A DNA stretch of 34,588 nt from a virus. The translations under genes and the position numbers were made by a program. The notes beneath the pieces are model-generated. The model worked only from the letters and a program-made list of their open reading frames with translations, had not been told where the DNA came from and made no database searches. Of this stretch, positions 1 through 20,087 are shown piece by piece (positions within the stretch are counted from its first letter, which is position 1; every line of letters begins with the position of its first letter). The stretch spans positions 1 to 34,588 of IMG/VR virus record IMGVR_UViG_3300045921_000964. One strand, 5' to 3'.

Positions 1-44
1 TCATAACCCGAAGGTCGTGGGTTCAAATCCCTCCCCCGCTACCA
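1..44 (+). tRNA. 3' part of initiator tRNA-fMet (CAU), probable attL
   Basis: Only the 3' half is in the window. The sequence starts in the anticodon loop (TCATAA, anticodon CAT). It continues with the stem end CCCGA, variable loop AGGTC, T-loop TTCAAAT (22-28), acceptor strand CCCCGCT (34-40), discriminator A41 and encoded CCA (42-44). The CCC following CATAA and the AAGGTCGT run match initiator tRNAs such as that of E. coli; elongator Met or Ile2 fit less well. The T-stem GTGGG/CCCTC has one T-T mismatch (18/32), which could mean that the 3' end is a hybrid attachment-site half. The recombinase gene runs into it from the other strand, so this is the likely left attachment site. Confidence 0.8.
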
Positions 45-1820: not shown

Positions 1821-1828
1821 GTCGTCGG

Positions 1829-1922
1829 GCCGCCTCTTCGTGCCAGTGCCGCGACTGGCAGCGCCCGTCCGTGGGCGCTGCTCTCCACCTGCCTACTTCT
1901 GCAGGAGGCGGCTTTTTGTTGC
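1829..1922 (-). promoter_or_regulatory. Structured repeat element, copy C (upstream of integration genes)
   Basis: Read on the minus strand, GCAACAAAA is followed by six variable bases, CTC and CTGCAGAAGTAG (1904-1893), the core shared with the elements at 5319 and 20022. The variable part GCCGCCTC (1912-1905) pairs perfectly with GAGGCGGC (1836-1829). Two further hairpins lie inside: AGCGCCC/GGGCGCT (1879-1873 with 1866-1860) and GCCAGT/ACTGGC (1859-1854 with 1847-1842). The result looks like a multi-branched RNA in the leader of the leftward transcript. The function is unknown. Confidence 0.55.
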
Positions 1923-1933
1923 ACTGAACACGA

Positions 1934-1962
1934 TTGACGCAGTCGAAATGGCGCGGTATCTT
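1934..1962 (+). promoter_or_regulatory. Sigma-70-like promoter candidate
   Basis: TTGACG (1934-1939), a 17-bp spacer and TATCTT (1957-1962) are good matches to housekeeping -35 and -10 boxes in GC-rich DNA. It lies about 190 bp upstream of the 2149 gene and would drive the two-gene cassette while the prophage is resident. No other gene lies between 1821 and 2148. Confidence 0.4.
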
Positions 1963-2148
1963 GCCACGTGTTAGGTTTTTGATAGGCATCAGGCCGGGCC
2001 CGGCAAGGCCCAGGTCGCCTCGGCCATAACGGGTTGGCGGGTCTAATGTTACGGCCCGTTTGTCAGGGTTTCCGCCGGACGGGCCGGCGGCCGCGGGCCG
2101 CAGTTGGGACGCTCCTCCGCGCTGAACGGGGGACCGGGAGAACACATC

Positions 2149-3357
2149 ATGGCAAGCAGTTACCGACTCAAGCACCTGTCCAATCCGGGCATCCTCAAGA
2201 AGATGGCCTTTCCGCTGCTCCTGCGTCTGCTGGAGCCGTACCGGGACTACCTCCAAGGCCGCGGGCTGACGTGGGCCGACCGGGAAGACGGCTTCGACTA
2301 CGCGGCCCTGGCGGTGGTACTGGCCTCGCCGACCGAGGAAACCCCCGAGGTCCTCCTGGACGCCCTCTACATCATCGACGCGACGGCGGAGGAGGAGTTG
2401 TTCGACGACATCCGCGACCGCGCCGCCGAGGCAGGCGTGGACCTGGGCGGGTTGGCCGAGCCGTCGCCGGCGGACCTGGCGGCGCTGGTCTGGCTGGAGC
2501 GGCCGGCGCTGCTGGAACAGATCCACGCCGAGCAACACCTGACGCGCCCCCGGCGGTTCGTCTCGTTCCTGTCCCGTCGGGGACCGGGGGCGTTGCCGGC
2601 CCAGCCGCCGCCGGAAGTTCTCACCGCCCTTCAGGAAGACCTGGACCGCTGGTTCGCCGAGCACAAGAAGGGCCATCGGGCCGTGCGGGTGTTCTTCTTC
2701 CCGCGGCAGGACGGTGCGTGGTTGCTCGTTCGGCACGGCCTGCGGATCACCCGCGAGGGGACGGTGGAGTCGGACGGTCGGCCCGGCCGGGTGTACTACC
2801 GGCCGGAGAAGTTCGACGTGCTCATCTATCACGCCGAGCGGGGCGAACTGGCCATCCACACCGCCACCAAGGGCGAGCAGGAGGCCTACTGTCGGCGGTT
2901 CGGCAGGCACCTGCTGGGCGACGAGGGGTACTTCGACTTCCCCAACGTCCGGCCGAAGTACACGCTCCGGCCCATCATCGCCCGGGGGCGGGCGGCGCTG
3001 GCCTGCCGGCCCGACGAGTACATCGAGGCGGTCCGGCTGGTGGAACTCCAGTTCCTTCACGACAGTCGGCAGCGGTACGTGGAGATTCACCGGGCCGACG
3101 ACGTGTTCGACGCGATGGAGGAGAAGGGCCGCAGGGTGCCGGAGGATGCGCTCCTGGTGTGCATGAAGCTCCAAGTCCTGTTCGCGGGGGCTTCCAGGTG
3201 GCGGAGCGTAGTCCTGCGGACGCCGAACGTTGCGGTCTTGGACCGCGACTCCGACAGCGAGGCCGTCCACGCCTGGCTGGATGAGCGCGGGTTCCTGCGC
3301 GGCGAGGAGGCCGAGGCTGGCGATGTTGCGGATGAGCAGACTGTGGCGGTTCCTTGA
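2149..3357 (+). CDS. Hypothetical protein, first gene of a two-gene cassette
   Basis: This 402-residue protein is not assigned to any family. The start MASSYRLKHLSNPG at 2149 has GGGAG about 10 nt upstream; the frame extends further 5' without a ribosome site. It has an acidic helical N-terminal part (about 1-150), an Arg/Phe-rich middle (VRVFFFPRQDGAWLLVRHGLRIT, about 183-205) and a C-terminal part that ends with a DRDSDSEAVHAWLDERGFLRG stretch and an acidic tail. No signal peptide or membrane segment is seen. It overlaps the next gene by 35 bp, which suggests co-translation. Its position next to the integrase, away from the lytic operons and with its own promoter-like site and terminator, fits a lysogenic cargo gene such as superinfection immunity; that role is inference. 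Confidence 0.75.
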   Translation: MASSYRLKHLSNPGILKKMAFPLLLRLLEPYRDYLQGRGLTWADREDGFDYAALAVVLASPTEETPEVLLDALYIIDATAEEELFDDIRDRAAEAGVDLGGLAEPSPADLAALVWLERPALLEQIHAEQHLTRPRRFVSFLSRRGPGALPAQPPPEVLTALQEDLDRWFAEHKKGHRAVRVFFFPRQDGAWLLVRHGLRITREGTVESDGRPGRVYYRPEKFDVLIYHAERGELAIHTATKGEQEAYCRRFGRHLLGDEGYFDFPNVRPKYTLRPIIARGRAALACRPDEYIEAVRLVELQFLHDSRQRYVEIHRADDVFDAMEEKGRRVPEDALLVCMKLQVLFAGASRWRSVVLRTPNVAVLDRDSDSEAVHAWLDERGFLRGEEAEAGDVADEQTVAVP

Positions 3358-4591
3358 GGCCAGGCCCGCGGCCACGGCCGTCGAGGCGGAATGGAAGACC
3401 CGCTTGGGCGGCCTGTTCGGGTGGGCGAGTCGGCTGCTCGTTCCGACACACGAGCGGGCCACGAGCTACCCCAACCCGGACCCCCAGGGCCTGCCCCTGG
3501 GCATTGTCCGACACAGGGACGGCAGCGTTGTCGCCGTCTGCATCGAGGGGACGGGCCGGAGGCTCGCGCTGACGGAAGCCGACACCGTCATCTACCGCCT
3601 GTCCTTCGGCGACCTGCGGACGATCCTGGCCGGGGCGCTTTCGCTTCGGGCCTGCACGGGTGACCTGTCCGGGCGGCCGGCCGTCGTGCCGTTGGGTTGG
3701 TGGGAGCCGCGTCCTGCCAGCTCCGTCCCCGTAACTCTCGTACTGGCCGACGGCTGCGAGGGACTCCGCCGGACGCTGGCGGACGTCTGTCCCGGCCTGG
3801 ACGGGCCGGCCATGTTGCTTACGCCCACGCGGAGGCGATGGAGCGACCAGGCCGTTCGCTGTGCCTCCGCGGCCCGGGCGATGCTGGTGCCGCTGGACGA
3901 GGTCGTGGCCCTTGAGGACCGCGGCGACGTGTCGGCTACTGCCGCGTGGGGAACGTATCAGGCGGCCTTCTGCGGGGAATTCCTGCCTGAGCTGGCCGTG
4001 GCGGCCGAGCCGCCGTATCTGTTCGCAAGGCGCGGCATGTGGGTCATCCGCTTCGAGGGCCGGCCGACGTATCTGGACGGCGGCCTGCGGGGCGCGGCGT
4101 TCCTGCAATATGTCCTCAGGCACCCCGGACGGGACGTGCCGGTCGTCCAGATGGCAGCGGATCTGGCTGGCGCCCAGACCGCCGACGCTGACTCCGCCGC
4201 TGCCGACGGGCTGGCCATGCACACGAAGTCCGCGGCCTTGGCCGACCGCCGGACCATCGCCCAGTGCAAGGCCCGGTACGAGTCGCTCCAAGAGGAACTC
4301 GACGACGCCCGCCGCAACAACGATAAGGGCCGGGCCGAGCGACTCCAGGACGAGATGGACAACCTCGCCGACTACTTGTCGGGCGTGCTGGGCCTGGACG
4401 GCCGCCAGCGCCGCACCGCAAGCGACGCCGTCCGGCTCAGGAAGCGCATCGCCCGGGTCATCGGCATCACCATCGACAAGATGGCCGAAAACGATTCCGC
4501 CCTGGCAACCCACCTGAAAAACAGCCTCACCTACTCCGGCGCGACCATCCGCTACGCGCCGGACCGTCCCATCGACTGGTCGTTCTCCTGA
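3323..4591 (+). CDS. Hypothetical protein with C-terminal regulator-like domain, second cassette gene
   Basis: This 422-residue protein has an unrecognised N-terminal region (about 1-220). The C-terminal part (about 220-422) is recognisable: a W-I-x-F-E-G-R strand, LQYVLRHPGRDV, a coiled coil (YESLQEELDDARRNND to about 370), LGLDGRQRR and a closing THLKNSLTYSGATIRYAPD stretch. This is the arrangement found at the C-terminus of many large actinobacterial ATPase or LuxR-like regulators, there usually ending in TGTxCxYxP. Here it is fused to a different N-terminus and no Walker motif is visible. The ATG at 3323 lies inside the end of the upstream gene; a second ATG at 3332 is possible. A sensing or regulatory partner of the 2149 protein is a guess. 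Confidence 0.7.
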   Translation: MLRMSRLWRFLEARPAATAVEAEWKTRLGGLFGWASRLLVPTHERATSYPNPDPQGLPLGIVRHRDGSVVAVCIEGTGRRLALTEADTVIYRLSFGDLRTILAGALSLRACTGDLSGRPAVVPLGWWEPRPASSVPVTLVLADGCEGLRRTLADVCPGLDGPAMLLTPTRRRWSDQAVRCASAARAMLVPLDEVVALEDRGDVSATAAWGTYQAAFCGEFLPELAVAAEPPYLFARRGMWVIRFEGRPTYLDGGLRGAAFLQYVLRHPGRDVPVVQMAADLAGAQTADADSAAADGLAMHTKSAALADRRTIAQCKARYESLQEELDDARRNNDKGRAERLQDEMDNLADYLSGVLGLDGRQRRTASDAVRLRKRIARVIGITIDKMAENDSALATHLKNSLTYSGATIRYAPDRPIDWSFS

Positions 4592-4605
4592 AAAACCTTC
4601 CGGCT

Positions 4606-4637
4606 ACGCCAAACGTGGCCGGGCCACGCCAAGTGTG
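4606..4637 (+). promoter_or_regulatory. Two direct repeats, possible operator
   Basis: ACGCCAAACGTG (4606-4617) and ACGCCAAGTGTG (4626-4637) are 20 bp apart, two helical turns, in the gap before the sigma-like gene. The palindrome CGTGGCC-G-GGCCACG (4614-4628) spans them. The layout suits a DNA-binding regulator, but no binding protein is identified. Confidence 0.3.
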
Positions 4638-4642
4638 ACGCC

Positions 4643-4671
4643 CCCGCCGGCGAAGGGCGAAAGCCGGCGGG
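4643..4671 (+). repeat. GC-rich hairpin
   Basis: A perfect 9-bp stem (CCCGCCGGC at 4643-4651, GCCGGCGGG at 4663-4671) with an 11-nt loop. No T-tract follows. It may assist the terminator 20 bp downstream. Confidence 0.4.
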
Positions 4672-4689
4672 AACGGGTCAATCGAACCG

Positions 4690-4737
4690 AGGCCTGCTGA
4701 AGCGCCCCAGCGCCGGTGTCCTTCAGCGGGCCTTTTT
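4690..4737 (+). terminator. Strong intrinsic terminator after the two-gene cassette
   Basis: A 13-bp stem with one G-T pair (AGGCCTGCTGAAG at 4690-4702, CTTCAGCGGGCCT at 4721-4733) is followed by a T-run to 4737. It separates the cassette from the sigma-like gene, which begins 30 bp further on. Confidence 0.85.
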
Positions 4738-4766
4738 CGTGCCCACGGCACGGAAAGGCGTCACGC

Positions 4767-5357
4767 ATGGATACCGCAGTTGCATCCCCTCACGGCACCG
4801 GCAATGTCGGCCTCGACGATTACGCCATCCGTCGCATCGACTTCTGCGTCAGGCGGCTGGTGCGAGCCTTCCACCTGAACCAGCACGAGGCGGACGACAT
4901 CCGCCAGGACCTGGCCCTGGACCTGCTGAAGGCCCTGGAGCGGTTCGATCCCGCCCAATGCGCCCGGTCAACCTTCGTCAGCAGGGCGTTGAACCGTCGG
5001 TTCAAGCACATCGCCCGCTCGCTGCGGAACGGCCGGCGGCACGGGGCCAAGAGTCCCCTGCTGCTGGGCGACCGCGAGCCGGTCTGCAACGACCCGGCGC
5101 AGGGGGAGTTCTCCGAGCAGGACCTTGCCGACCTCCGCATGGACCTGACTGACATCCTGGGCCGGCTGTCCCCTCGCCACCGGCGCGTCGTGGAGGCGGT
5201 CGTGGCCGCCGGCAGTCGGACCGGGGCCGCACGGGCGCTGGGAGTCCATCGCTCCACGGTCCTGCGAACTCTGGCCGAGATTCGGCCGCACCTGGAGGCC
5301 GCCGGATACGGCCCCGGAAAAATCTCCGCAACAAAATCGCGAGTGCTGCAGAAGTAG
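4767..5357 (+). CDS. Sigma-70-family-like factor
   Basis: This 196-residue protein resembles small sigma factors. The N-terminal helices (about 17-90, with HEADDIRQDLALDLLKALERFDP and STFVSRALNRRFKHIARSLR) look like region 2. The C-terminal segment (about 130-185, LSPRHRRVVEAVVAAGSRTGAARALGVHRSTVLRTLAEI) is a region 4 helix-turn-helix. The start at 4767 has AAAGG upstream; an earlier in-frame ATG at 4716 lies inside the terminator. It is the first gene after that terminator and could switch on phage operons. Its last 13 codons (KISATKSRVLQK) are encoded by repeat element A, a sequence that also occurs outside any gene at 20022. A DNA-binding regulator without sigma activity is the alternative. 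Confidence 0.7.
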   Translation: MDTAVASPHGTGNVGLDDYAIRRIDFCVRRLVRAFHLNQHEADDIRQDLALDLLKALERFDPAQCARSTFVSRALNRRFKHIARSLRNGRRHGAKSPLLLGDREPVCNDPAQGEFSEQDLADLRMDLTDILGRLSPRHRRVVEAVVAAGSRTGAARALGVHRSTVLRTLAEIRPHLEAAGYGPGKISATKSRVLQK

Positions 5358-5406
5358 GAGGGCGGAAGGGAAGCGCATCTCCCCGACGGTGACGGAGACT
5401 CTCGAT
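5319..5406 (+). promoter_or_regulatory. Structured repeat element, copy A (upstream of the recombination operon)
   Basis: AAAATCTCCGCAACAAAA (5319-5336), six variable bases, GTGCTGCAGAAGTAG (5343-5357), GAGGGCGGAAGG and GAAGCGC (5370-5376) match copy B almost base for base outside the variable part. Possible pairing: ATCGCGAG (5336-5343) with CTCTCGAT (5399-5406), one mismatch, which covers the first two bases of the next start codon; GTGCT/AGCGC (5343-5347 with 5372-5376); TCTCC/GGAGA (5378-5382 with 5394-5398). It overlaps the end of the sigma-like gene. Confidence 0.55.
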
Positions 5407-6208
5407 GGCCCGAACAAGCCTGGACTTCCTCATCCGCGAGCCGGACGCCGAGTATCGTGAGAAGGCCAAGACATTCCTGACCTCGCACCAGCTTGCGGAC
5501 TTCCGCAAGTGCCCGCTGCTCTACTGGCACAAGGTGCAGGGCCTGGTTCCCGACGAGGACCGGCCCGCCTACCTCCTGGGCCGGGCGGCGCACGTACTCA
5601 TCCTCGAAGGCCGCGAGCGCTTCGACGCGGAGTACGCCATCGGCGGACCCATCAACGCCCGAACGGGCAAACCCTTCGGCACGAACACCCAGGCCTACGC
5701 CGACTGGGCGGCCGCACAGGGCAAACCCGTCATCACCGACGAGCAATTCGCCCTGGTCGTCAACCTCACCACCGGCGTCCGCTCCCACGCCATCGCCGCC
5801 GAACTGCTGTCAGACGGCGTGCCCGAGGGCGTCGTCCGCACCGAGTACGGCGGCCGGCCGTGCCAGGCGCGGCTCGACTTCTTCAATCCCCAGCGCGGGG
5901 TCATCGACCTGAAGACCTGCGACGACTTGACGTGGTTCGAAGCCGACGCGCGGCGCTTCGGCTATGCGCACCAGTTCGCCTTCTACCACGCCCTCGTCGT
6001 TCGCGTCACGGGGCAGGAATCGCCAGTCCACGTCATCGCGGTCGAGAAGAAGCCGCCCTATCGCTGCGGCGTGTGGCAAATGTCAGAGCAGACCTTGGCC
6101 GTCGCGCGGCGGGAGAACGAGGCAGCGATTGCGCGGCTCGGCGAGTGCGAGTCCCGGAACCTCTGGCCCACGGGATACGAGGAGGTCCGGGCGTTCGATT
6201 ACGTGTGA
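5405..6208 (+). CDS. PD-(D/E)XK exonuclease, RecE/exonuclease VIII-like
   Basis: This 267-residue protein resembles phage 5'-3' exonucleases that resect double-strand ends for annealing recombination. The nuclease core reads RLDFF (Asp158), VIDLKT (Asp168, Lys170) and, after a helix, YAHQFAFYH (188-195), the usual order for PD-(D/E)XK enzymes of the YqaJ/RecE type. An N-terminal SHQLADFRKCPLLYWHK segment (27-43) and LLGRAAHVLILEG (57-69) are also typical. The start at 5405 has GGAG 8 bp upstream. It is followed by a Sak4-like ATPase and a DUF669 protein, which together would form a phage recombination set. Confidence 0.85.
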   Translation: MARTSLDFLIREPDAEYREKAKTFLTSHQLADFRKCPLLYWHKVQGLVPDEDRPAYLLGRAAHVLILEGRERFDAEYAIGGPINARTGKPFGTNTQAYADWAAAQGKPVITDEQFALVVNLTTGVRSHAIAAELLSDGVPEGVVRTEYGGRPCQARLDFFNPQRGVIDLKTCDDLTWFEADARRFGYAHQFAFYHALVVRVTGQESPVHVIAVEKKPPYRCGVWQMSEQTLAVARRENEAAIARLGECESRNLWPTGYEEVRAFDYV

Positions 6209-6323
6209 ACCGACGGGCGGGCGGGATGGCGTGACCGGGCCTCGGGCCATCCGGTCGGGACTCCCTGTGCCCGCTCGCCCGTCAACTTGAGTCCGCCGCG
6301 GCGGACAGGAAGGAGACATTGCG

Positions 6324-7124
6324 ATGGGACTCATGCAGACAATCCAGCGCGGCAAGACGCCGATGCCGCCGCGGCTGCTGGTCTATGGAACCGAAGGCAT
6401 CGGCAAGAGCACGCTGGCGGCCAGTGCGCCGAGGCCCGTCTTCATCCAGACCGAGGACGGCCTGAACGAGATCGCCTGCGAGAAGTTCCCGCTGGCGACC
6501 ACGGTCGATGACGTGCTGGCTGCCCTGGCGGAGCTGGCCGCCGAACAGCACGACTACCAGACGGTGGTCCTGGACAGCCTGGACTGGACCGAGCGGCTCA
6601 TTTGGGACGCCGTCTGCCAGGAGTTCCGCGTCACCAGCATCGAGAAGGCAGATGGCGGCTACCAGCGCGGCTACATCCACGCCCTGACCCACTGGCGGAA
6701 GGTGGTGGACGCCCTGAACGCGCTCCGCGTCGGCAAAGGGCTCGCGGTCATCCTCATCGCCCATGCCAAGGTCGAGAAGTTCGAGGACCCCGAGGCGACG
6801 ACCTACGACCGCTACAGCCCCCGCCTGCACAAGCACGCCTGCGCACTGCTGACCGAGTGGTGCGACGCGGTCCTCTTCGCCACGCGGAAGTACCGCACGG
6901 AGACCGAGGACACCGGCTTCGGCCGCACGCGGACCATCGCGGTCGGCGTGGGCGCGGAGGGCGGCGAGCGCATCTTGCGCTGCGCTGGCTCCCCGGCGTG
7001 CGTGGCCAAGAACCGCTTTGGTCTGCCCGCCGAGCTGCCGCTCTCGTGGCCGGCCCTAATGTCGGCGCTGACCCAGGAAACCCAGCAACCTCAGGAACAG
7101 GAAGGAGAACTGGCCCATGGCTAA
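6324..7124 (+). CDS. Sak4-like AAA ATPase, phage recombination protein
   Basis: This 266-residue protein carries Walker A GTEGIGKST (22-30), a QTEDG segment (41-45), Walker B TVVLDSLD (79-86) and a later IAHAKVEKF strand, matching the RecA-like ATPases of phages called Sak4 or AAA_24. These are thought to promote single-strand annealing with a phage single-strand binding protein. AGGAAGG precedes the ATG at 6324. The Gln/Glu-rich C-terminus overlaps the start of the next gene by 8 bp. The 115-bp gap before it contains nothing recognisable apart from the ribosome site. Confidence 0.85.
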   Translation: MGLMQTIQRGKTPMPPRLLVYGTEGIGKSTLAASAPRPVFIQTEDGLNEIACEKFPLATTVDDVLAALAELAAEQHDYQTVVLDSLDWTERLIWDAVCQEFRVTSIEKADGGYQRGYIHALTHWRKVVDALNALRVGKGLAVILIAHAKVEKFEDPEATTYDRYSPRLHKHACALLTEWCDAVLFATRKYRTETEDTGFGRTRTIAVGVGAEGGERILRCAGSPACVAKNRFGLPAELPLSWPALMSALTQETQQPQEQEGELAHG

Positions 7125-7572
7125 CCTCAATGGCTTCAACGCCCACGAAGTGGAACCGTCCGCCGACTTCGAGCCGCTGCCGGCGGGCAAGTACGTCGCC
7201 GTCGTCACGGCCTCGGAGATGAAGCCGACCAAGAACGGCAACGGCTCGTACCTGGAACTCACCTTCCAGGTCATCGAGGGGCCGCACAAGGGACGGCTCG
7301 TCTGGGAGCGGCTGAACCTCGACAACCCGAACCCGCTGACGGTGAAGATCGCCCGTTCGGAACTCTCGGCCATCTGCCGCGCTGTCGGCGTCATGCAGCC
7401 GAAGGACTCGGTGGAACTGCACAACCTGCCGCTGGTCATCAGCGTCAAGCAGAAGACCGACGCCGACGGCGAAGTGCGGAACGAGGTCAAGGGCTACGCC
7501 AAGCGGGAGACCGCCAACGGCGCAAAGCCCGCCCAGAACGCAAACGCCACGCCTCCGTGGAGGCGCGGATGA
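7117..7572 (+). CDS. DUF669-like protein, probable single-strand DNA-binding partner
   Basis: This 151-residue protein has the features of phage DUF669: a PLPAGKYVAVVTASEMKPTKNGNG opening, LELTFQVIEGPHKGR, and NLDNPNPLTVKIARSELSAICRAVG. The family is found beside Sak-type recombinases and is often annotated as a single-strand binding protein. The C-terminal tail after residue 130 is low-complexity (Ala/Asn/Pro) and ends PPWRRG, unlike the acidic tip of cellular SSB. GAAGGAG precedes the start. It overlaps both neighbours. Confidence 0.8.
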   Translation: MANLNGFNAHEVEPSADFEPLPAGKYVAVVTASEMKPTKNGNGSYLELTFQVIEGPHKGRLVWERLNLDNPNPLTVKIARSELSAICRAVGVMQPKDSVELHNLPLVISVKQKTDADGEVRNEVKGYAKRETANGAKPAQNANATPPWRRG

Positions 7573-7964
7573 CGCTGCTCGAACTGCCCTGGCCGCCCAC
7601 GGTGAATCGGTACTACCGCAACGTGGGCTTCCGCACGCTGATCAGCCGCGAGGGCCGGGCATATCGCCGACACGCCTGCGCCCTTCTGGGCGGCAACGGG
7701 CCGCAAAAGCCCCCGGCGGACGGGCGGATTGCGCTGGCGATGGACGCCTTCCCGCCAGATAGGCGTAAGCGCGATCTCGACAACCTCCAGAAAGCGGTCC
7801 TGGACGCCCTCCAGTACGCAGGCATCTATCGGGACGACAGCCAGGTGGACCTGCTGGTCGTTCGGCGGCGCGAGCCGGTCGCGGGCGGCCGGGTCTGCGT
7901 CCGCGTCGATGAGTTCCCTCTACGCACTTGTCCGCTATGCGGACGCATCTGGGAGAGCAACTGA
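7569..7964 (+). CDS. RusA-like Holliday junction resolvase
   Basis: This 131-residue protein has the RusA fold signature: N-terminal LPWPPTVNRYYR (6-17) and the acidic cluster RKRDLDNLQKAVLDAL with Asp69, Asp71 and Asp79, followed by IYRDDSQV (Asp89/90). RusA resolves branched DNA intermediates. The start at 7569 forms ATGA with the previous stop; a start 12 bases upstream is less likely. The C-terminal extension RTCPLCGRIWESN (119-131) has one CxxC pair and is not part of standard RusA. It may help form a metal site in the dimer. Confidence 0.85.
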   Translation: MTLLELPWPPTVNRYYRNVGFRTLISREGRAYRRHACALLGGNGPQKPPADGRIALAMDAFPPDRRKRDLDNLQKAVLDALQYAGIYRDDSQVDLLVVRRREPVAGGRVCVRVDEFPLRTCPLCGRIWESN

Positions 7965-7966
7965 CC

Positions 7967-8584
7967 ATGGGGCGCATCTACATCGCAGGCCCGATGACCG
8001 GCATGCCGGAGCACAACTTCCCCGCGTTCCACGCCGCGGCCGACCGGTTCCGCCAGGCCGGGTGGGAGGTCGCCAACCCGGCGGAGAACTTCCACGGGCG
8101 GACGGACCTGCCGCGCTCGGCCTACCTGCGAGCCGACGTGGCCTTGCTCGCCCAGTGCGACGCCATCGCTTTGCTCCCCAGATGGGATAGGTCCCACGGC
8201 GCGACGCTCGAGGCCGTCATCGCCGCCGAGATCGGCCTGTCATTCTTCGACGCCATCTCCGGCGAGCAGATGGTGGAGCCGATGGTCTGTTTCTCCGCCG
8301 AGCACGGCGCAGCCTCCATCCTCGATACGGCCAAGCGGCTAACCGACGGCAGCCGTCAGGCCGACTACGGTCACCCGTGCGACGACTTCGCTCGCACGGC
8401 GGCCATGTGGAACGGCATCCTTTCGGCCAAGCTCCGCGACGGGGCGGCGATCTCCGCGATGGACGTGCCGCTATGCATGATCGCCGTCAAGCTCGCCCGC
8501 CAGGCCCACCGCCACAAGCGCGACAACCTCGTGGACATCGCCGGGTACGCCCGCACGGCGGCCATGGTGGCCGGGGAGGAATAG
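7967..8584 (+). CDS. DUF4406 / DUF6378-like fusion, probable nucleotide-related enzyme
   Basis: This 205-residue protein seems to have two parts. The N-terminal half (1-90: RIYIAGPMTGMPEHNFPAFHAAADRFRQAGWEVANPAE, then CDAIALLPRWDRSHGATLEAVIA) is the DUF4406 fold, related to nucleoside 2-deoxyribosyltransferases. The C-terminal half (about 115-205: ADYGHPCDDFARTAAMWNGIL) matches phage proteins called DUF6378. The two parts are more often separate, so the fusion is notable. The start at 7967 has GGGAGAG upstream. The substrate is unknown; a base-exchange or nucleotide-pool role is inferred from the fold. Confidence 0.7.
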   Translation: MGRIYIAGPMTGMPEHNFPAFHAAADRFRQAGWEVANPAENFHGRTDLPRSAYLRADVALLAQCDAIALLPRWDRSHGATLEAVIAAEIGLSFFDAISGEQMVEPMVCFSAEHGAASILDTAKRLTDGSRQADYGHPCDDFARTAAMWNGILSAKLRDGAAISAMDVPLCMIAVKLARQAHRHKRDNLVDIAGYARTAAMVAGEE

Positions 8585-11106: not shown

Positions 11107-11114
11107 GGAACCGC

Positions 11115-13322: not shown

Positions 13323-13566
13323 AACGGCAGATGAAACAGCGGGCGAAGTACACGATGAAACTGGCCGCTTGTTTCATGCTCTGCGGCCTGTTTCATGTTT
13401 CATCGGTTGTTTCATCCGCAAGTGCTTGTGCAGACAGCGGATACGCCGATTCTGAAACGATGAAACGCCCTTGCGCGCACACCCCCCCATACCCCCCGGC
13501 GCGCGAACGGCCTGAAGGCCGTCGCGCGGGCTGGGGTGCGTGCGCGCGTGCGAGTTTCATGTTTCA
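13319..13566 (+). other. Repeat-rich non-coding region, candidate replication origin
   Basis: Eleven copies of TGAAAC or its complement GTTTCA start at 13320, 13332, 13356, 13371, 13390, 13397, 13409, 13453, 13461, 13554 and 13561; eight extend to ATGAAAC/GTTTCAT. Copies lie in both orientations, several as close pairs. Between the last two groups are two C-runs (within 13480-13497) and a hairpin (13500-13505 and 13507-13512 with 13517-13528, loop TGAA). The field follows the primase-helicase gene directly, a common site for a phage origin with iterons. Short ORFs here arise from the repeats and are not believed. Confidence 0.5.
13500..13528 (+). repeat. GC-rich hairpin within the repeat field
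   Basis: CGCGCG (13500-13505), a bulged A, ACGGCC (13507-13512), loop TGAA, GGCCGT (13517-13522), CGCGCG (13523-13528). The 12-bp stem is very stable. No T-tract follows, so it is not a standard terminator. Confidence 0.5.
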
Positions 13567-13672
13567 CGGTTCCTCCGCCGCGAGCACGCGCCGAGACGGC
13601 GGCGGGAACGGTCGCGCGTATAAGCAGAGTTTCCGACCGGTGTCCGGTTTTTCGGACGGGAGATAACGATGC

Positions 13673-14089
13673 ATGTGCACGGATGCGACGCGAGTCTGGC
13701 GGCGGTCTGTTCCGCAACTTGCGAGCCGCCTCAAGACGGACAGGCACAATGCCTTGATGCTCGCCGACCCCTGGTCGCGGGCGGCCCACAGCATGGTGCA
13801 GGGCTGGCGGATTCGGATGAGTCGTCCGCCCGCCAAGGGCAATGCCCGCGGGCTGGGCAAGCCGACATGGGCGGTATTCGCGCGCTGGGCGGTATCCATC
13901 GCCGCGACGAAGGCGAATCGCGCACGGAAAAGCGACTGGCATCTGTGGGCCTCGCGTCGCGTGAGCGGCGGGAGCCGCTATATCCCCAAGCGGGACCGGC
14001 ATTGGCTTGGGGCACGGCCCCACGCGGAGCGGTGTCGGTCGAAAACGTGCTGCGGTTACTTGAACACCAGCAATATCGTTGCGCCTTGA
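13673..14089 (+). CDS. Probable N-terminal part of an HNH-endonuclease locus
   Basis: This 138-residue ORF has GGGAGA at 13658-13663, 9 nt before its ATG. It is Trp/Arg-rich (DPWSRAAHSMVQGWRIRM, KPTWAVFARWAVSIAATKANRARKSDWHLWASRRVSGGSRY), with the coding-like codon use of its neighbours up to about 14030. From there its frame gives an unlikely tail (CRSKTCCGYLNTSNIVAP), while the frame one base back turns into a clear HNH domain. Either it is a separate small DNA-binding protein that overlaps the HNH gene, or one gene is split by a -1 frameshift or a sequencing error near the AAAA run at 14041. ATGs at 13669 and 13757 are alternative starts; the former is in another frame. Confidence 0.5.
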   Translation: MCTDATRVWRRSVPQLASRLKTDRHNALMLADPWSRAAHSMVQGWRIRMSRPPAKGNARGLGKPTWAVFARWAVSIAATKANRARKSDWHLWASRRVSGGSRYIPKRDRHWLGARPHAERCRSKTCCGYLNTSNIVAP

Positions 14090-14319
14090 CCGGTCGCAGG
14101 CTCACGCCCCAGACGGCCTCCCTCGACCACATTGTCCCCGTCCGCCTTGGCGGTGAGCATGCCATCGAGAACACCCAGGTCCTGCACAAGGACGTGAACC
14201 GGGCAAAGGGGGCGCTGACCAACGAGGAGTTCCGAGCGATGTGCCGGGAGGTAGTGGCCTGGGCGGACTCCAGCAAGACGCACCGGACCATCGGAGAGGA
14301 GGAGGAGGAACGTGAATAA
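14032..14319 (+). CDS. HNH endonuclease domain
   Basis: The 95-residue stretch from the GTG at 14032 contains YRCALTGRRLTPQTASLDHIVPVRLGGEHAIENTQVLHKDVNRAKG, a typical HNH core: DH, then N, then H in the beta-beta-alpha-metal fold. The frame is open further upstream, but that part reads like a shadow. The GTG has GGAG only 2 nt before it, which is too close for a good ribosome site. This supports a frameshifted join with the upstream ORF. HNH enzymes beside phage methylase or terminase genes often nick DNA for packaging or act as homing enzymes. Confidence 0.65.
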   Translation: MSVENVLRLLEHQQYRCALTGRRLTPQTASLDHIVPVRLGGEHAIENTQVLHKDVNRAKGALTNEEFRAMCREVVAWADSSKTHRTIGEEEEERE

Positions 14320-14536
14320 CGGAATGACCGACGCGCCAAGTCGCACCCAGGCGCGGCCGGTTCGTGGGGTCGAGGAATCCGCCGCCCCGGCGGAAAGGTC
14401 GCAACCTGGTGCAACCTGGTGCGAATGGGGTGCCTGCCTGCGCCGCAACCGCGGCAGGCAGGGAACCCTGGAGCGATTTCGGACGCCCGCCGGGTCGGCG
14501 GGCCATGCCTACCGGCAGGCAGGCAAGGAGGATTGA
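14312..14536 (+). CDS. Small hypothetical ORF built partly from repeats
   Basis: A run of GGAGGAGGAGG lies just before the GTG at 14312, so initiation is plausible, and the ORF overlaps the HNH stop by 8 bp. The 74-residue product (Pro/Arg/Ala-rich, one CEWGAC segment) has no recognised family. Its second half is encoded by a tandem repeat and two GC-rich palindromes, which suggests a degenerate or repeat-invaded gene. Confidence 0.3.
   Translation: MNNGMTDAPSRTQARPVRGVEESAAPAERSQPGATWCEWGACLRRNRGRQGTLERFRTPAGSAGHAYRQAGKED
14401..14525 (+). repeat. Tandem repeat plus two GGCAGGCA palindromes
   Basis: GCAACCTGGT occurs twice in tandem (14401-14420). TGCCTGCC (14431-14438) pairs with GGCAGGCA (14453-14460). 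A second imperfect palindrome, TGCCTACC/GGCAGGCA, lies at about 14505-14520, and another GCAGGCA-type unit runs into the ribosome site AAGGAGG of the methyltransferase gene. Confidence 0.55.
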
Positions 14537-14539
14537 GCC

Positions 14540-15892
14540 ATGAAGGTCGAACTTCGCAAGGTTTCGGACATCAAGCCCTACGAGCACAACCCCCGCGACA
14601 ACGACGGCGCGGTCGAGGCGGTCGCCCGGTCCATCCGGGAGTACGGGTTCCGCCAGCCCATCGTCGTGGACGCCGAGGGCGTCATCGTCGTGGGTCATAC
14701 CCGCTGGAAGGCGGCGCAGAAGCTCGGGCTGGAGATGGTCCCCGTCCACGTGGCGACCGACCTCACCCCGGCGCAGGTCAGGGCGTACCGCATCGCCGAC
14801 AACAAGGTCGCGGATTTGGCCACGTGGGATATGGAACTCCTGCCCATCGAATTGTCGGAACTGCGCGGCATGGACGTGGACCTGGAACTCCTGGGCTTCT
14901 CGTCGGCGGAGCTGGAGAAGATGCTCGGCGCGACAGGCACCGAGGGCCTGACCGACCCGGACGCCATCCCCGAGCCGCCGGACGAGGCAGTCACCAAGCC
15001 CGGCGACTTGTGGACACTCGGCAACCACCGGCTGCTGTGTGGCGACTCCGGCAAGGCCGAGGACGTGGACAGGCTGCTGGACGGGGCGACCGTGCAGCTC
15101 GTGAACACCGACCCGCCCTACAATGTCGGCGTCGCCAGCCGGAGCAACAACGCCATCGCCGCCAGCGGCGACCGGCCCATCGGCCAGCAGGGCATGGACA
15201 TCGCCATCCGGGGCGAGACGCACGCCACGACGGGCAAGCTGCGCCCCAAGGACAGGCCGCTCGTCAACGACTTCATCTCCGACGAGGAGTTCGCCCGGCT
15301 CCTGCGGCTGTGGTTCGGCAACATCCAGCGGGTGCTGGAACCGGGCCGGGCCTTCTACATCTGGGGCGGGTACTCGAACATCTGGAACTATCCCAACGCG
15401 CTGCGGGAATCGGAGCTCTACTTCTCGCAGATGATCATCTGGGTCAAGGAGCATCCGGTCCTCACGCGCAAGGACTTCATGGGCAACCACGAGTGGTGTT
15501 TCTACGGCTGGAAGGAGGGCGCGGCCCACTACTTCAACCCGGAGATTACCAACGCCACCGATGTGTGGTCCGTGAAGAAGGTCAACCCGCAGTCGATGGT
15601 GCACCTCACGGAGAAGCCGGTCGAACTCGCCGTCCGCGCCATGACCTACAGCAGCAAGCCGGGCGAGAACGTCCTGGACCTCTTTGGCGGCTCGGGCAGC
15701 ACGCTCATCGCCGCCGAGCGGACCGGGCGTCGGGCACTCGTGGTGGAGATCGACCCGCTCTACTGCGATGTCATCGTCCGCAGGTGGGAAGAGTTCACAG
15801 GACGGAAGGCCGAGCGGACGGCCCTGAACGACCAAACCCCGGCTTGCGCCGGGGTGGTCGGAGCGGAGGGATTGAAGCGTGCTACGCCTTGA
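14540..15892 (+). CDS. ParB-like domain / DNA methyltransferase fusion (N4- or N6-)
   Basis: In this 450-residue protein the N-terminal 120 residues form a ParB/Srx-like domain (NPRDNDGAVEAVARSIREYGFRQPIVVD, VVGHTRWKAAQKLG). The methyltransferase follows with the catalytic motif DPPYNV (191-196) before the AdoMet motif LDLFGGSGST (about 380-389), the beta-class order. TEKPVELA is also typical. The fusion is common in phages and mobile elements; it probably methylates adenine or cytosine amino groups to protect phage DNA. The target site cannot be read from sequence. AAGGAGG precedes the start. The C-terminal tail is encoded by a GC-rich hairpin (TPACAGVV), and the last 11 bp overlap the convergent minus-strand gene. 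Confidence 0.9.
   Translation: MKVELRKVSDIKPYEHNPRDNDGAVEAVARSIREYGFRQPIVVDAEGVIVVGHTRWKAAQKLGLEMVPVHVATDLTPAQVRAYRIADNKVADLATWDMELLPIELSELRGMDVDLELLGFSSAELEKMLGATGTEGLTDPDAIPEPPDEAVTKPGDLWTLGNHRLLCGDSGKAEDVDRLLDGATVQLVNTDPPYNVGVASRSNNAIAASGDRPIGQQGMDIAIRGETHATTGKLRPKDRPLVNDFISDEEFARLLRLWFGNIQRVLEPGRAFYIWGGYSNIWNYPNALRESELYFSQMIIWVKEHPVLTRKDFMGNHEWCFYGWKEGAAHYFNPEITNATDVWSVKKVNPQSMVHLTEKPVELAVRAMTYSSKPGENVLDLFGGSGSTLIAAERTGRRALVVEIDPLYCDVIVRRWEEFTGRKAERTALNDQTPACAGVVGAEGLKRATP
15837..15854 (+). repeat. GC-rich hairpin translated as TPACAG
   Basis: CCCCGGC (15837-15843), TTGC, GCCGGGG (15848-15854), near the 3' end of the methyltransferase gene. It adds a C-terminal tail outside the conserved domain. 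With no T-run it is not a normal terminator, though it may dampen convergent transcription. Confidence 0.5.
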
Positions 15893-16685
15893 GCGTGAAC
15901 ATCCCGCGGTCGGCCTTGGCGAACCGCGACGCGTCGCCCTTCTTGGCGATCTCGCGGATGATGGCTGCGTAGACCGTCGCGGACGGCGTCTTGCCGCCGG
16001 TCTTCCAGTACCCCTTCTCGATGGCCCGCTCGACGATGGTCTTGCAGCCCAGCGGCTCGCCCGCGTCGGTCAGCACCTTCGCCGCTGCGTCCAGGCCGCT
16101 CATCGTCCCGTCCTTGCGCTCGGCCTTCTTGCGGGGCTTCGGCTCGCCCGTCGCCTTGGCCTTTGGCCGCACGACGCCGACCGGAACGCCCAGGACCTTC
16201 GAGGCGACCTTGGCGGCCGTCTGAAGCGCCTGGGTCTCGCGCTCCTGCTTACCGTCCTCCTGCTTCTTCCGCCACTGGTCCTCCGGCTGACCATCGCCCC
16301 GGACGCGGTCGGTCGAGAACTTCACGGTCCTCTCCTTGCCGTCGGGCTGGAGGACCGTGCCCTCGTACCGCCCGTGCCCGAGCCCAGAGTCGACCCGCAC
16401 CGGGAGGTACGAGCCGCCCACGGCCACGGAATAGACGTGGCCCAACACGACCTGCTTCTTCGCCTTGCTCATGTCCGTCTCCTCGCCGGCGATTGCTTCC
16501 CGCGTTGCGGCGTCGGCCGGCCTGCGAAGCCGCTGCGCTCCTCTGATGCGGACGGCGCGGTGCGTCTCGGCGTTGACCGCGTCCCATCCGCCGTACGGGG
16601 ACTGGCCGGTGATCCGCACCGGCACGACCCGGCCGCTGACCTTCGCCAGGTAGCGGCCACCGATGACGACCTCGTTCTTCTTCAT
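15882..16685 (-). CDS. HARE-HTH domain protein with two SH3-like repeats
   Basis: In this 267-residue protein the C-terminus (about 195-267: SGLDAAAKVLTDAGEPLGCKTIVERAIEKGYWKTGGKTPSATVYAAI) matches the HB1/ASXL/restriction-endonuclease winged helix (HARE-HTH), linked in the literature to modification or restriction of DNA. Two N-terminal repeats, starting KKNEVVIGGRYLAKVSGRVVPVRI and KKQVVLGHVYSVAVGGSYLPVRV, look like tandem copies of a small beta-barrel. The middle is Lys/Arg-rich. The start MKKNEVVIGG at 16685 has AGGAGG upstream. It ends convergently over the methyltransferase stop, so the two may work together; that is inference. Confidence 0.75.
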   Translation of the reverse strand: MKKNEVVIGGRYLAKVSGRVVPVRITGQSPYGGWDAVNAETHRAVRIRGAQRLRRPADAATREAIAGEETDMSKAKKQVVLGHVYSVAVGGSYLPVRVDSGLGHGRYEGTVLQPDGKERTVKFSTDRVRGDGQPEDQWRKKQEDGKQERETQALQTAAKVASKVLGVPVGVVRPKAKATGEPKPRKKAERKDGTMSGLDAAAKVLTDAGEPLGCKTIVERAIEKGYWKTGGKTPSATVYAAIIREIAKKGDASRFAKADRGMFTLKA

Positions 16686-16697
16686 GGCTTGCACCTC

Positions 16698-17003
16698 CTA
16701 CCTGCGGTCGATGGTGATGTAGCCCAGTTCGGCCAACACGTCGTTGACGCGGTCCCAGCCGCCGAGGAGCTCGGCCAACTGCTCGGCGAACCAGCGGACG
16801 CCACGGTCCACGGCGTCGTCGCCCGTCGGACGCGCCCCCAGGAGCGCCGTGGCCATGACCGCCGCAGCCTCCGGCGAGACGCAGTCCTGGACCAGGTTCC
16901 GCAGCTCCTTGCCCGGGTCGGCGGGGTCGTTCGGCGGCACGGTCACGCGGACCTTCTTGCCGCCGAACTCCGCCTCGTAGGTCTTGAGTCGCTTACGTTT
17001 CAC
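16698..17003 (-). CDS. Hypothetical protein
   Basis: A 101-residue protein with a GTG start (17003) and AGGAG upstream. The N-terminus is basic (MKRKRLKTYEAEFGGKKVRVTV), followed by helical segments (AAAVMATALLGARPTGDDAVDRGVRWFAEQLAELLGG). No family is recognised and no membrane segment is seen. It is the middle gene of the three-gene minus-strand operon (gaps of 45 and 12 bp). Confidence 0.7.
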   Translation of the reverse strand: MKRKRLKTYEAEFGGKKVRVTVPPNDPADPGKELRNLVQDCVSPEAAAVMATALLGARPTGDDAVDRGVRWFAEQLAELLGGWDRVNDVLAELGYITIDRR

Positions 17004-17048
17004 GGTTCGTTTCTCCTTTCGCCGGATAGCGCCGGCCGCGCTTCTGTT

Positions 17049-17333
17049 TCAGTCCTCGAAGGTCTCAATGACCCGCCGGTAGGCGTCGATGTCCAACCCG
17101 GTGCCGCGGTGGCCGTCGAGGTAGACCTGGAGCGTCCGGGCGACCTGCCCGTTCAGCGCCGTCTCCTTCGCGTCGGCTTCGAGCTGGAAGGCCTCGCCGA
17201 CCGGCACGCCCTCGCCGTCGCGGCGCTCGATGACCTTCGTCACCCGCGTGCCGGTGATCATGATCCGCCGCCCGTCGCGGCGGATGGTCGCCGTTCCGAG
17301 CGGCCCTTCAATGTCGATTCGCGTCGTCTTCAT
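17049..17333 (-). CDS. Hypothetical protein, first gene of the minus-strand operon
   Basis: The 94-residue product starts MKTTRIDIEGPLGTATIRRDGRRIMITGTRVTKVIERR. AAAGGAG lies 8 nt upstream of 17333, and the frame further upstream is a shadow. It is predicted to be mostly beta-strand with a helical end (DIDAYRRVIETFED). No family is recognised. It is transcribed away from the terminase genes, across a region that contains inverted repeats. Confidence 0.7.
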   Translation of the reverse strand: MKTTRIDIEGPLGTATIRRDGRRIMITGTRVTKVIERRDGEGVPVGEAFQLEADAKETALNGQVARTLQVYLDGHRGTGLDIDAYRRVIETFED

Positions 17334-17469
17334 GGTCTCGGCTCCTTTCGGTTTCGCGCTGGCCATGCCAGCGATCCGATCAGGCCGTGGCCGGGCGGGC
17401 ATGCCAAGTGGAATCTGCCGGGAAAGTGCGGAATTCCCGATGTCGCATGTTGCGATGGGGTAAAGACTT
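17334..17469. promoter_or_regulatory. Divergent intergenic region with inverted repeats
   Basis: This 136-bp gap separates the minus-strand trio from the packaging genes. It contains TCGCA-TGT-TGCGA (17443-17455), GGAATTCC (17430-17437) and GCTGGC-CAT-GCCAGC. These could be operator sites for a regulator that controls both sides. No clear -35/-10 pair was found. Confidence 0.35.
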
Positions 17470-17733
17470 ATGTCGCGTAGCGAAGATTCCGGGCAGATTC
17501 CGCCGCACCCGGCGCAAGGACCTGCCGCACCCGGCGGCGGAGGGGCGCTGAGCCCGTCGGCCATGACGCCGGAGCAGGCCGCCCGCGTCCTGGCGGCCGC
17601 GGGCGCGCGGCACGCGACTGTCGAGAACATCCGCCGGGACATCGAGGCTGGTGCGCCGGTGAACGCCGACGGGACCGTCAACCTCGTGCATTACGCCGCC
17701 TGGCTGGCGCGGGAGTCCGCCCGTGGCGATTGA
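17470..17733 (+). CDS. Small terminase-like DNA-binding protein, paralogue of the TerL N-terminus
   Basis: An 87-residue protein just upstream of TerL, in the position of a small terminase subunit. The first 30 residues are Pro/Gly-rich. The remainder (MTPEQAARVLAAAG to VNLVHYAAWLARE) looks like a helical DNA-binding domain and resembles residues 8-57 of the adjacent TerL: P-x-x-x-AR-x-L, E-x-x-x-R, AG, DG, and the closing Y-x-AWL align with one 2-residue gap. Common origin by duplication or by fusion of TerS to TerL is likely. The ribosome site is weak, so the ATG at 17563 is an alternative start. It overlaps the TerL start by 11 bp. Confidence 0.6.
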   Translation: MSRSEDSGQIPPHPAQGPAAPGGGGALSPSAMTPEQAARVLAAAGARHATVENIRRDIEAGAPVNADGTVNLVHYAAWLARESARGD

Positions 17734-20011
17734 CCCCCGCAACCTGAAGCCCGCCGACCTGGCGCGGCTGCTGAACTCCACGCCGCTCGGCACGGTCCTC
17801 GACGAGCGCCAGCTCTACCGCCACCGTATGCGGGCGGGGTTCCGCATCGGCGACGGGCGGCGCGTGGACCTCTTCCGTTACGTGGCGTGGCTCGTGGACC
17901 AGCGGCACGTGCCGAGGAAGGTCGTCGACCCCGGTGCAGAGTACGAGGCGCTCAAGGAGCGTGCCGCCGCGCGGAACCGGGCGCTCTCGGAGGCCGGGCG
18001 GGACATCGGCGAGCTGCCCGCCGTCGTTGACCCGCAGCGCAAGGCGGCGAGCGAGAGGGACTTTCGGTTCTTCTGCCAGGCGTATTTCCCCATGACGTTC
18101 TACCTCGGCTGGTCGCCAGACCACCTGAAGGTCATCGCCCGCATCGAGCAGGCGGTACTGCACGGGGGACTGTTCGCGCTGGCCATGCCGCGCGGCAGCG
18201 GCAAGACCAGCATCGCCGAGTGCGCCTGCCTGTGGGCGGTTCTCTACGGCCACCGCCAGTTCGTTTGTCTCATCGGCGCGTCCGAGGTCCACGCCGTCGA
18301 GATGCTCGACTCCATCAAGATGGAACTGGACGGCAACGACCTCCTGGAGGCCGACTTCCCCGAGGTGGTCCATCCCATCCGGTGCCTGGACGGCATCGCC
18401 AACCGCTGCTCAGGCCAGCTCTACAAGGGCGAAAGGACGCACATCGGCTGGACGGCTAGCGAAGTCGTCCTGCCGACCATGCCAGGCTCGAAGGCCAGCG
18501 GGGCCATCATCAAGGTCGCCGGCATCACCGGGCGTATTCGGGGCATGAAGTACAAGCGGGCTGACGGGCAGACCGTGAGGCCGTCGCTGGTGGTCCTGGA
18601 CGACCCGCAGACGGACGAATCGGCGAGGTCGCTATCGCAGTGCGCTACGCGGGAGCGGATTCTCGCGGGCGCGGTGCTCGGCCTTGCCGGCCCGGGCAAG
18701 AAGATCAGCGGCATCATGCCCTGCACTGTCATCCGGCCCGGCGACATGGCCGACAACATCCTCGACCGTGACAAGCACCCGGAATGGAACGGCGAGCGGA
18801 CGCGGATGGTCTACTCATTCCCCAAGAACGAGAAGCTCTGGGCCAAGTACGCCGAGGTCCGCGCCGAGAGCCTTCGCATTCACGGCGACCTGCGCGAGGC
18901 GACGGCCTTCTACGAGGCCAATCGCGAGGCCCTCGACGAGGGCGCGGAAGTGGCGTGGCCGGAGCGGTTCAACCACGACGAGGCCTCGGCCATCCAGCAC
19001 GCCATGAACCTGAAGCTCCAGGACGAGGCGGCGTTCTTCGCCGAGTACCAGAACGAGCCGCTGCCGGAAAAGGGCGTGGAGGATGACGAACTCCTCACCG
19101 CCGACCAGGTCGCCCAGAAGCTCAACGGCTATCGCGCGGGCGAAGTGCCCCTCGGCGCGGACCACCTGACGATGTTCATCGACGTGCAGGGCAAGCTCCT
19201 CTTCTGGCTGGTCTCGGCCTGGGCGGATGACTTCACGGGATACGTCATCGATTACGGCTCGTACCCGGACCAGAAGCGCCGTTACTTCACGCTGCGGGAC
19301 GCGACGCGGACGCTCCAACTTGCGGCCAAGGGCGTGGGGCTGGAAGGCGCGATCTACGCCGGGCTGGAGGTCGTGACGAACGATCTTCTCGGCCGAGAGT
19401 GGCGGCGCGAGGACGGGGCGCACCTGAAGGTCGAACGGTGCCTTATCGACGCCAACTGGGGCACGTCCACAGACGTGGTCTATCAGTTCTGCCGCCAGTC
19501 CGCCCATGCGGCGGTCCTGACGCCCAGCCACGGGCGGTTCGTGGGCGCATCGAGCATCCCGTTCTCCGAGTACCGGCGCAAGCGCGGGGACCGGGTGGGC
19601 CTGAACTGGCGCATCCCGAGCGTCCACGGCCGCCGGGCCATCCGCCACGTGCTCTTCGACTCGAACTACTGGAAGAGCTTCATCCATGCGCGTCTGGCCG
19701 TGGCGATGGGCGACCGGGGGTGCCTGTCCCTGTTCGGCCGCGACCCGGAAACGCATCGCCTCCTGGCCGAGCACCTCACGAGCGAGTACCGCGTGAAAAC
19801 CGAGGGTCGGGGTCGCGTGGTGGACGAGTGGAAGCTGCGCCCGGAGGCCTCGGAGAACCACTGGCTTGATTGCCTGGTCGGCTGCGCCGTGGCGGCGTCG
19901 ATGCAAGGGGTGACCCTGCGATCTCACGAAGAGGTGCCCCGGCCCCGCGGGCGGATCAAGTTGTCTGAGTTTCAGCGCCGCAGGGTCGCCGCGTCGGGCA
20001 AGATTCTCTGA
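17723..20011 (+). CDS. terL: Terminase large subunit
   Basis: This 762-residue packaging motor and nuclease starts with GTG at 17723. The N-terminal 60 residues form a domain like the small protein upstream. The ATPase has Walker A MPRGSGKTS (155-163) and Walker B LVVLDDPQTDE (from about 289). The nuclease part begins TMFIDVQG (about 483-490, Asp487), continues with IDANWGTSTD and ends near NHWLDCLVGCAVA. It is longer than most TerL proteins because of the N-terminal domain, and resembles lambda gpA-type terminases. Head genes follow in the usual order, after the element at 20022. Confidence 0.9.
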   Translation: MAIDPRNLKPADLARLLNSTPLGTVLDERQLYRHRMRAGFRIGDGRRVDLFRYVAWLVDQRHVPRKVVDPGAEYEALKERAAARNRALSEAGRDIGELPAVVDPQRKAASERDFRFFCQAYFPMTFYLGWSPDHLKVIARIEQAVLHGGLFALAMPRGSGKTSIAECACLWAVLYGHRQFVCLIGASEVHAVEMLDSIKMELDGNDLLEADFPEVVHPIRCLDGIANRCSGQLYKGERTHIGWTASEVVLPTMPGSKASGAIIKVAGITGRIRGMKYKRADGQTVRPSLVVLDDPQTDESARSLSQCATRERILAGAVLGLAGPGKKISGIMPCTVIRPGDMADNILDRDKHPEWNGERTRMVYSFPKNEKLWAKYAEVRAESLRIHGDLREATAFYEANREALDEGAEVAWPERFNHDEASAIQHAMNLKLQDEAAFFAEYQNEPLPEKGVEDDELLTADQVAQKLNGYRAGEVPLGADHLTMFIDVQGKLLFWLVSAWADDFTGYVIDYGSYPDQKRRYFTLRDATRTLQLAAKGVGLEGAIYAGLEVVTNDLLGREWRREDGAHLKVERCLIDANWGTSTDVVYQFCRQSAHAAVLTPSHGRFVGASSIPFSEYRRKRGDRVGLNWRIPSVHGRRAIRHVLFDSNYWKSFIHARLAVAMGDRGCLSLFGRDPETHRLLAEHLTSEYRVKTEGRGRVVDEWKLRPEASENHWLDCLVGCAVAASMQGVTLRSHEEVPRPRGRIKLSEFQRRRVAASGKIL

Positions 20012-20021
20012 CCTTCCTGCC

Positions 20022-20087
20022 AAAATCTCCGCAACAAAAATGCCGGTGCTGCAGAAGTAGTAGGGCGGAAGGAGGAAGCGCCGGCAT
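20022..20087 (+). promoter_or_regulatory. Structured repeat element, copy B (upstream of head genes)
   Basis: AAAATCTCCGCAACAAAA (20022-20039) is identical to copy A; then come six different bases, GTGCTGCAGAAGTAG (20046-20060) and TAGGGCGGAAGGAGGAAGCGCC. ATGCCGGTGC (20040-20049) pairs with GCGCCGGCAT (20078-20087) in a 10-bp stem with one T-G pair. The stem holds the first two bases of the next start codon, and the 28-nt loop holds its ribosome site AAGGAGG. This would affect initiation on the 20086 gene. Confidence 0.6.

Follow-up and report, generated by a model that had tools for sequence, protein, structure and literature searches.

An element at the heads of three phage modules

The question raised by this locus is what a short element does that recurs at the heads of three modules of one phage. 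The earlier note on this DNA had described three copies with a common core and a variable segment able to pair with downstream sequence, and had likened them to antitermination sites such as HK022 put and lambda nut. A pattern scan of the whole window (the entire stretch of 34,588 nucleotides that was analysed) showed exactly three occurrences of GCAACAAAA-N9-CTGCAGAAGTAG, at 1893-1922 on the minus strand (copy C) and at 5328-5357 (copy A) and 20031-20060 (copy B) on the plus strand. No further copy was found in the window at up to three mismatches and no match in 100 shuffles of the window, confirming that the three copies share a core. The element is laid out as GCAAC-N15-GCAGAAGTAG, i.e., in a -35/spacer/-10 arrangement, and an extra upstream AAAATCTCC is common to copies A and B, inside a 60-nt self-match (88%, E 3e-14). 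The predicted promoters are as follows.

1893-1922, minus strand: copy C, predicted promoter, exact match, upstream of the serine integrase gene; -35 GCAAC 1922-1918, spacer 1917-1903, -10 block GCAGAAGTAG 1902-1893
5319-5357, plus strand: copy A, predicted promoter; AAAATCTCC 5319-5327, -35 5328-5332, spacer 5333-5347, -10 block 5348-5357
20022-20060, plus strand: copy B, predicted promoter between the terminase and portal genes; AAAATCTCC 20022-20030, -35 20031-20035, spacer 20036-20050, -10 block 20051-20060

The location at module heads was borne out by the neighbouring genes, which are a serine integrase for copy C, a RecE-like exonuclease and Sak4 for copy A, and terminase, portal and capsid for copy B. 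The site of copy C relative to the integrase is the same as in relatives. The integrase gene and the frames directly behind the copies are listed below.

1-1641, minus strand: large serine recombinase (integrase); PF00239, PF07508, PF13408; phrog_95
1575-1820, minus strand: possible short ORF of 81 aa immediately after copy C, without a family match
5405-6208, plus strand: RecE/exonuclease VIII-like gene, the first behind copy A; phrog_412, PF12684
20086-20286, plus strand: small head-module ORF of 66 aa behind copy B, followed by the portal gene at 20288-21730

At the extreme left edge of the window, beside the integrase gene, positions 1-41 (plus strand) weakly resemble a tRNA in its 3′ half, scoring 24.6 bits, which is under the gathering score, and may be an attachment-site remnant; ARAGORN found no full tRNA at this edge. 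A 32-bp inverted repeat (53-84, 87.5% self-complementary) lies within the end of the integrase gene.

The phage encodes an ECF-like sigma factor whose gene ends inside copy A

The 3′ end of the following gene overlaps copy A, with the last TAG of the motif serving as the stop codon.

4716-5357, plus strand: phage sigma factor gene, sigma-70 region 2 and region 4, ECF-like; start probably at the ATG at 4767, stop codon inside copy A

The product of this gene matched PF04542 (Sigma70_r2) above the cut-off and TIGR02937 (sigma70-ECF superfamily) with 44.3 bits against a cut-off of 42.9; its match to PF07638 (Sigma70_ECF) was below the cut-off of that family. An AlphaFold model of modest quality (pLDDT 74, pTM 0.42) showed two helical parts, one like region 2 and one like region 4, with a disordered link (94-114) between them, and the best match of this model in a fold search against the PDB was the ECF sigma factor SigL, with weak E-values. 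ECF (group 4) sigma factors have regions 2 and 4 only, a short linker and bipartite promoters (PMC8103513). The window sigma likewise contains regions 2 and 4 only, with a linker of fewer than 50 residues and a sigma-70 superfamily match, and the window promoters are bipartite with a -35 element, GCAAC, that contains AAC. However, the -10 block GCAGAAGTAG lacks the CGT of textbook ECF promoters, and most relatives have CGTCA or GGACA, not AAC. A further difference from ECF systems is that no motif copy lies upstream of the sigma gene in the window, the copies being found only behind it and elsewhere, so autoregulation from this motif is not indicated. No anti-sigma gene was identified, the ORFs examined upstream of the sigma gene having no assignable family. 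The approximately 2.8 kb between the integrase and sigma genes (1786-4591), which contain several long open frames without a usable family match, would hold the sigma gene's own control.

Relatives carry their own versions of the motif, which change with the sigma recognition helix

The window motif in its exact form is specific to this phage. When viral contigs were scanned with exact and relaxed patterns, one other contig (L001) proved to have copy B, matching the window there; apart from it, only chance-looking matches were seen outside the window. Relatives were gathered via the terminase, which gave a large phage family residing mostly in Planctomycetota genomes; when the sigma protein alone was used as query against viral contigs, no relative was found. 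Three overlapping samples of planctomycete genomes contained the sigma family in 30 of 294, 62 of 347 and 68 of 398 genomes, and many further predicted sigma-adjacent promoters were seen in the sampled planctomycete genomes.

Self-comparison showed that most relatives with the sigma gene have a short repeat of their own, built in the same way, and about 30 related planctomycete phages and prophages carry two to three copies each of their own motif version. These copies matched at 28-39 of 40 positions, versus a maximum of 24-28 for reversed-sequence controls. The two-block motif directly follows the stop of the sigma gene, in many cases at +4 to +20, and recurs elsewhere in the same genome. 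When aligned on the -35 pentamer, all versions share the order pentamer, 15 nt, second block; they read CGTCA..GGGTAGGTCTAC, GGACA..GGCATAGGTAACC, GTACA..GGCATAGGTAACC, GGCAA..AGATATAGAAGGTAG and GCAAC..GCAGAAGTAG. The distance from the -35 element to the start codon has a median of 72 nt.

In the approximately 30 prophages, one copy lies behind the sigma gene and before the exonuclease/Sak4/helicase module, and most have a further copy a few hundred bp before the portal gene, upstream of the serine integrase gene, or both. Where the integrase is in the opposite orientation, the copy flips too (G010, G031, G054, G060, G062 and G063), and where the head genes are inverted (G018, G026 and L267), the pre-portal copy is inverted as well. 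Directly behind the terminase gene, where the window has copy B, the relatives L013-L090 mostly have a short zinc-ribbon-like (CxxC...CxxC) frame. Two tandem diverged sigma genes occur in place of one in G011 (L164-L166) and G051 (L311), and no repeated promoter motif was found near them.

The conserved blocks are 92% identical within a genome versus 48% between genomes (the within-genome figure being inflated by the choice of copies by similarity), and within a genome the spacers agree much less than the blocks do. Since copies 10-20 kb apart change together, a shared trans-acting reader is needed. The recognition-helix class of region 4 agreed with the -35 class in 60 of 62 classified sigmas, seven more being left unclassified. 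PRT (PRTTL) helices went with CGTCA in 32 of 33 cases and SRR helices with xGxCA in 24 of 25, while HR-type helices (HRS, HRN or NRT) went with GCAAC, GCGAC or GGCA (GCxAC/GGCA) in all four (the window, L382, G010 and G070). The correlation with -35 distance was higher for region 4 (0.55) than for region 2 (0.44), with shared ancestry contributing to both values, and shared descent partly accounts for the covariation of sigma and motif. These comparisons, which are made at the level of sequence, lead us to predict with high confidence that the element is a sigma-factor promoter.

The spacer of the predicted promoter can pair with the next start region in the window

The pairings named in the earlier note for copies A, B and C all exist in the sequence, with seven of eight possible pairs in copy A. 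The arms are located as follows.

1905-1912, minus strand: copy C left arm GCCGCCTC, within the promoter spacer, pairs with 1836-1829
1829-1836, minus strand: copy C right arm GAGGCGGC, 9-16 nt upstream of the ATG at 1820
5336-5343, plus strand: copy A left arm ATCGCGAG, within the spacer, 7/8 pairs with 5399-5406
5399-5406, plus strand: copy A right arm CTCTCGAT, extends into the ATG at 5405
20040-20049, plus strand: copy B left arm ATGCCGGTGC, lies in the spacer and forms 10 pairs with the start region
20078-20087, plus strand: copy B right arm GCGCCGGCAT, overlaps the ATG at 20086, with an AGGAGG ribosome site in the loop

The partner segments of copies A and B thus reach into the start codon and the loop of copy B holds the ribosome site, just as had been described. 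Compared with shuffled spacers, pairing of the spacer with the start region (-25..+25) was significant for copy B (p 0.002) and copy C (p 0.005). The pairing of copy A showed no excess over shuffled downstream sequence (p 0.70), and copy A was not among the significant copies in the spacer-shuffle test. In the minimum-energy fold of the read-through RNA, the stem is present in copy A, and in copies B and C competing stems win. The predicted accessibility of the start region in the three copies was 0.42-0.44 in read-through RNA versus 0.53-0.56 in sigma-initiated RNA; shuffling the spacer of copy B or C left the predicted accessibility unchanged.

Spacer pairing in two groups of relatives shows compensatory changes

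The pairing survey covered 107 non-redundant copies, in which 12-nt segments were compared with downstream sequence. Pairing at E <= -18 kcal/mol was seen in 10-11 copies for spacer segments versus 0-3 elsewhere (n=107). In the spacer-shuffle test, spacers of 12 of the 107 copies, including window copies B and C, paired at p<0.01 with the stretch from -25 to +25 about the start codon, as against 0-2 of 107 for control segments upstream of the -35 element; the segment just behind the spacer, which contains the -10 block, showed some excess too (5/107 at p<0.01). About 88% of the 107 copies had no significant spacer pairing. Relative to the start, the right arms of the pairing copies lie between -25 and +22. 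Predicted accessibility was slightly lower with the real spacer than with shuffled ones over 91 copies (0.407 versus 0.430, p 0.0008), and the change on shuffling bases upstream of the -35 element was not significant (p 0.18).

Two pairing designs recur, one in which the arm faces codons 3-7 (GGCATA group) and one in which it faces a Shine-Dalgarno CGAGG (CGTCA group). The GGCATA group keeps a fixed register with codons 3-7, with 13-16 pairs in L286, L395, G028 and L421. In the GGCATA alignment A3 (seven sequences, whose members were chosen for pairing), 89.5% of cells were paired versus at most 49.5% when the arms were slid, 7 of 15 pairs had changed at both positions, and none of the 500 shuffles matched the covariation score. 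In the CGTCA alignment A4 (11 sequences, chosen by promoter type, with poorly pairing members included), 79.5% of cells were paired, both-side changes occurred in 6 of 12 pairs, and again 0 of 500 shuffles reached the covariation score. The pairing had been expected to fail in relatives; covariation above background, which the earlier note had named as support, held in two lineages. The claim that the kept pairing reflects selection on RNA structure stands in part: the compensatory changes in two groups of relatives, the excess being strongest at the spacer, and the pairing of copies B and C beyond chance speak for it, but it did not extend to copy A, whose pairing is within chance, and the stems of copies B and C are absent from the minimum-energy folds.

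Weighing of alternative readings

Taken as a whole, the reading that the elements are promoters of the phage's own ECF-like sigma factor (4716-5357) and that the spacer of a subset encodes a hairpin arm is very probably right as far as sequence comparison can tell. There is good evidence from relatives that the spacer may also serve as a hairpin arm in part of the phage family; the role of the hairpin in this phage is the weaker half of the claim and is uncertain. The strongest competitor, to which we give a substantial but lesser chance, holds that the elements are sigma promoters only and that the window pairings are coincidental or serve another purpose, e.g., mRNA stability. It fits the chance-level pairing of copy A, the minimum-energy folds of copies B and C that avoid the named stems, and the lack of pairing in most relatives, but it does not account for two of the three window copies being among the 12 of 107 at p<0.01, for the pairing excess being strongest at the spacer, or for the compensatory changes in two other groups.

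That the elements are operators for a phage repressor or activator rather than sigma promoters is very unlikely. Sites that change together within a genome would follow from any trans-acting DNA-binding protein; however, the sites are bipartite with 15-nt spacing, a copy stands right behind the sigma gene in most relatives, and the -35 class follows the sigma region-4 helix. Moreover, the relatives G007 and G027, which have no recognisable homologue of the window sigma, showed no such repeat in self-comparison.

The antitermination reading fares still worse and we regard it as highly improbable. Lambda nut consists of boxA and boxB, used with the N protein, none of which was noticed here, and the window element resembles it in its position at module heads. 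HK022 put is an RNA of about 70 nt with two stem-loops, transcribed from an upstream promoter (PMC9378689), and as with put, copies are found at the heads of left and right operons, an RNA structure has been proposed, and in some relatives the spacer pairing shows compensatory changes. In contrast to put, the window element has two conserved blocks at promoter spacing that do not form two stems, and Rfam gave no match at the element, either at the gathering threshold or in a permissive search. The blocks flank an unconserved spacer of fixed length (N15) with no conserved stem, most copies are unpaired, and the conserved part ends near the start codon, as expected of a promoter. The comparison with put and nut drawn in the earlier note therefore gives way to the constant 15-nt -35/-10 spacing, the promoter geometry and a divergence in step with the sigma recognition helix. 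That note had also set a transcription start within or after the element against its own proposal, and such a start is what the promoter model predicts. A site-specific recombination site, with six variable bases between conserved arms, was dropped, as the copies are spaced from genes as promoters are and change with the sigma helix, and so was a ribozyme, as relatives have no conserved structured core.

Proposed mechanism and comparison with phage T4

In the promoter reading with a hairpin arm, sigma region 4 would recognise GCAAC as the -35 element and region 2 would recognise GCAGAAGTAG as the -10 element, with 15 nt separating the two, and the spacer would vary because it is free of sigma contacts. 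Once the sigma factor is made, the recombination/replication module (copy A), the head module (copy B) and the integrase operon (copy C) would be switched on, with transcripts beginning 3-12 nt past the AGAAGTAG blocks. Some copies, here probably B and C, would carry in their spacer the 5′ arm of a hairpin that covers the ribosome site or start codon of the following gene. RNA reading through from upstream, which at copy A would be the sigma gene's own message, would contain this arm and be poorly translated, and the gene would stay off until sigma has been produced. RNA begun at the sigma promoter would lack the spacer, its expected 5′ end being downstream of it, and would be freely translated; if the element is a promoter, the pairing thus belongs to read-through transcripts only.

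We infer sigma binding, the start sites and translational silencing by analogy with the T4 genes e, soc, 49 and I-TevI, in which early read-through RNA is silenced by a hairpin and the DNA at the late promoter encodes the 5′ strand of that hairpin (PMC3014915; PMC2988022). As in T4 late genes, the phage sigma factor would drive promoters directly before genes, and the 5′ arm is proposed to occur only in read-through RNA. In the 12 of 107 copies with pairing at p<0.01, window copies B and C among them, the predicted promoter also shares the T4 feature of lying inside the region that encodes the 5′ arm, the arm being in the -35/-10 spacer. T4 is a lytic phage with the sigma factor gp55 and the late promoter TATAAATA (PMC3014915; PMC2988022), whereas the phages of the window group are temperate, with an ECF-like sigma factor and bipartite promoters, and differ further in having the arm in the -35/-10 spacer, copies at several module heads and divergence from phage to phage.

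For the family as a whole, we lean modestly towards the view that widespread temperate phages of Planctomycetota possess private sigma/promoter pairs that evolve new specificities (at least three recognition classes) and jointly control the replication, head and integration modules, with the spacer repeatedly recruited as a start-blocking hairpin arm, such that one 40-bp site would control both transcription and translation. No description of this system, or of transcription control in planctomycete phages, was found in the open-access literature, to which the search was confined (subscription papers lying outside it). Sequence alone suffices to recognise the sigma factor and its predicted promoters in dozens of prophages, which offers a natural set of sigma/promoter pairs for studying the choice of -35 sequences by region-4 helices, expression parts that may prove orthogonal, and a phage group that tests whether promoter spacers commonly serve as hidden hairpin arms beyond T4.

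The motif was found four times in each of two complete host genomes (10.8 and 4.7 Mb), with three copies in the known prophage region. One fourth copy, a perfect copy of the G065 prophage motif at G065:C1:5764105-5764141, lies about 270 kb from the prophage and may be a remnant, belong to a satellite, or mark a host gene that the phage controls.
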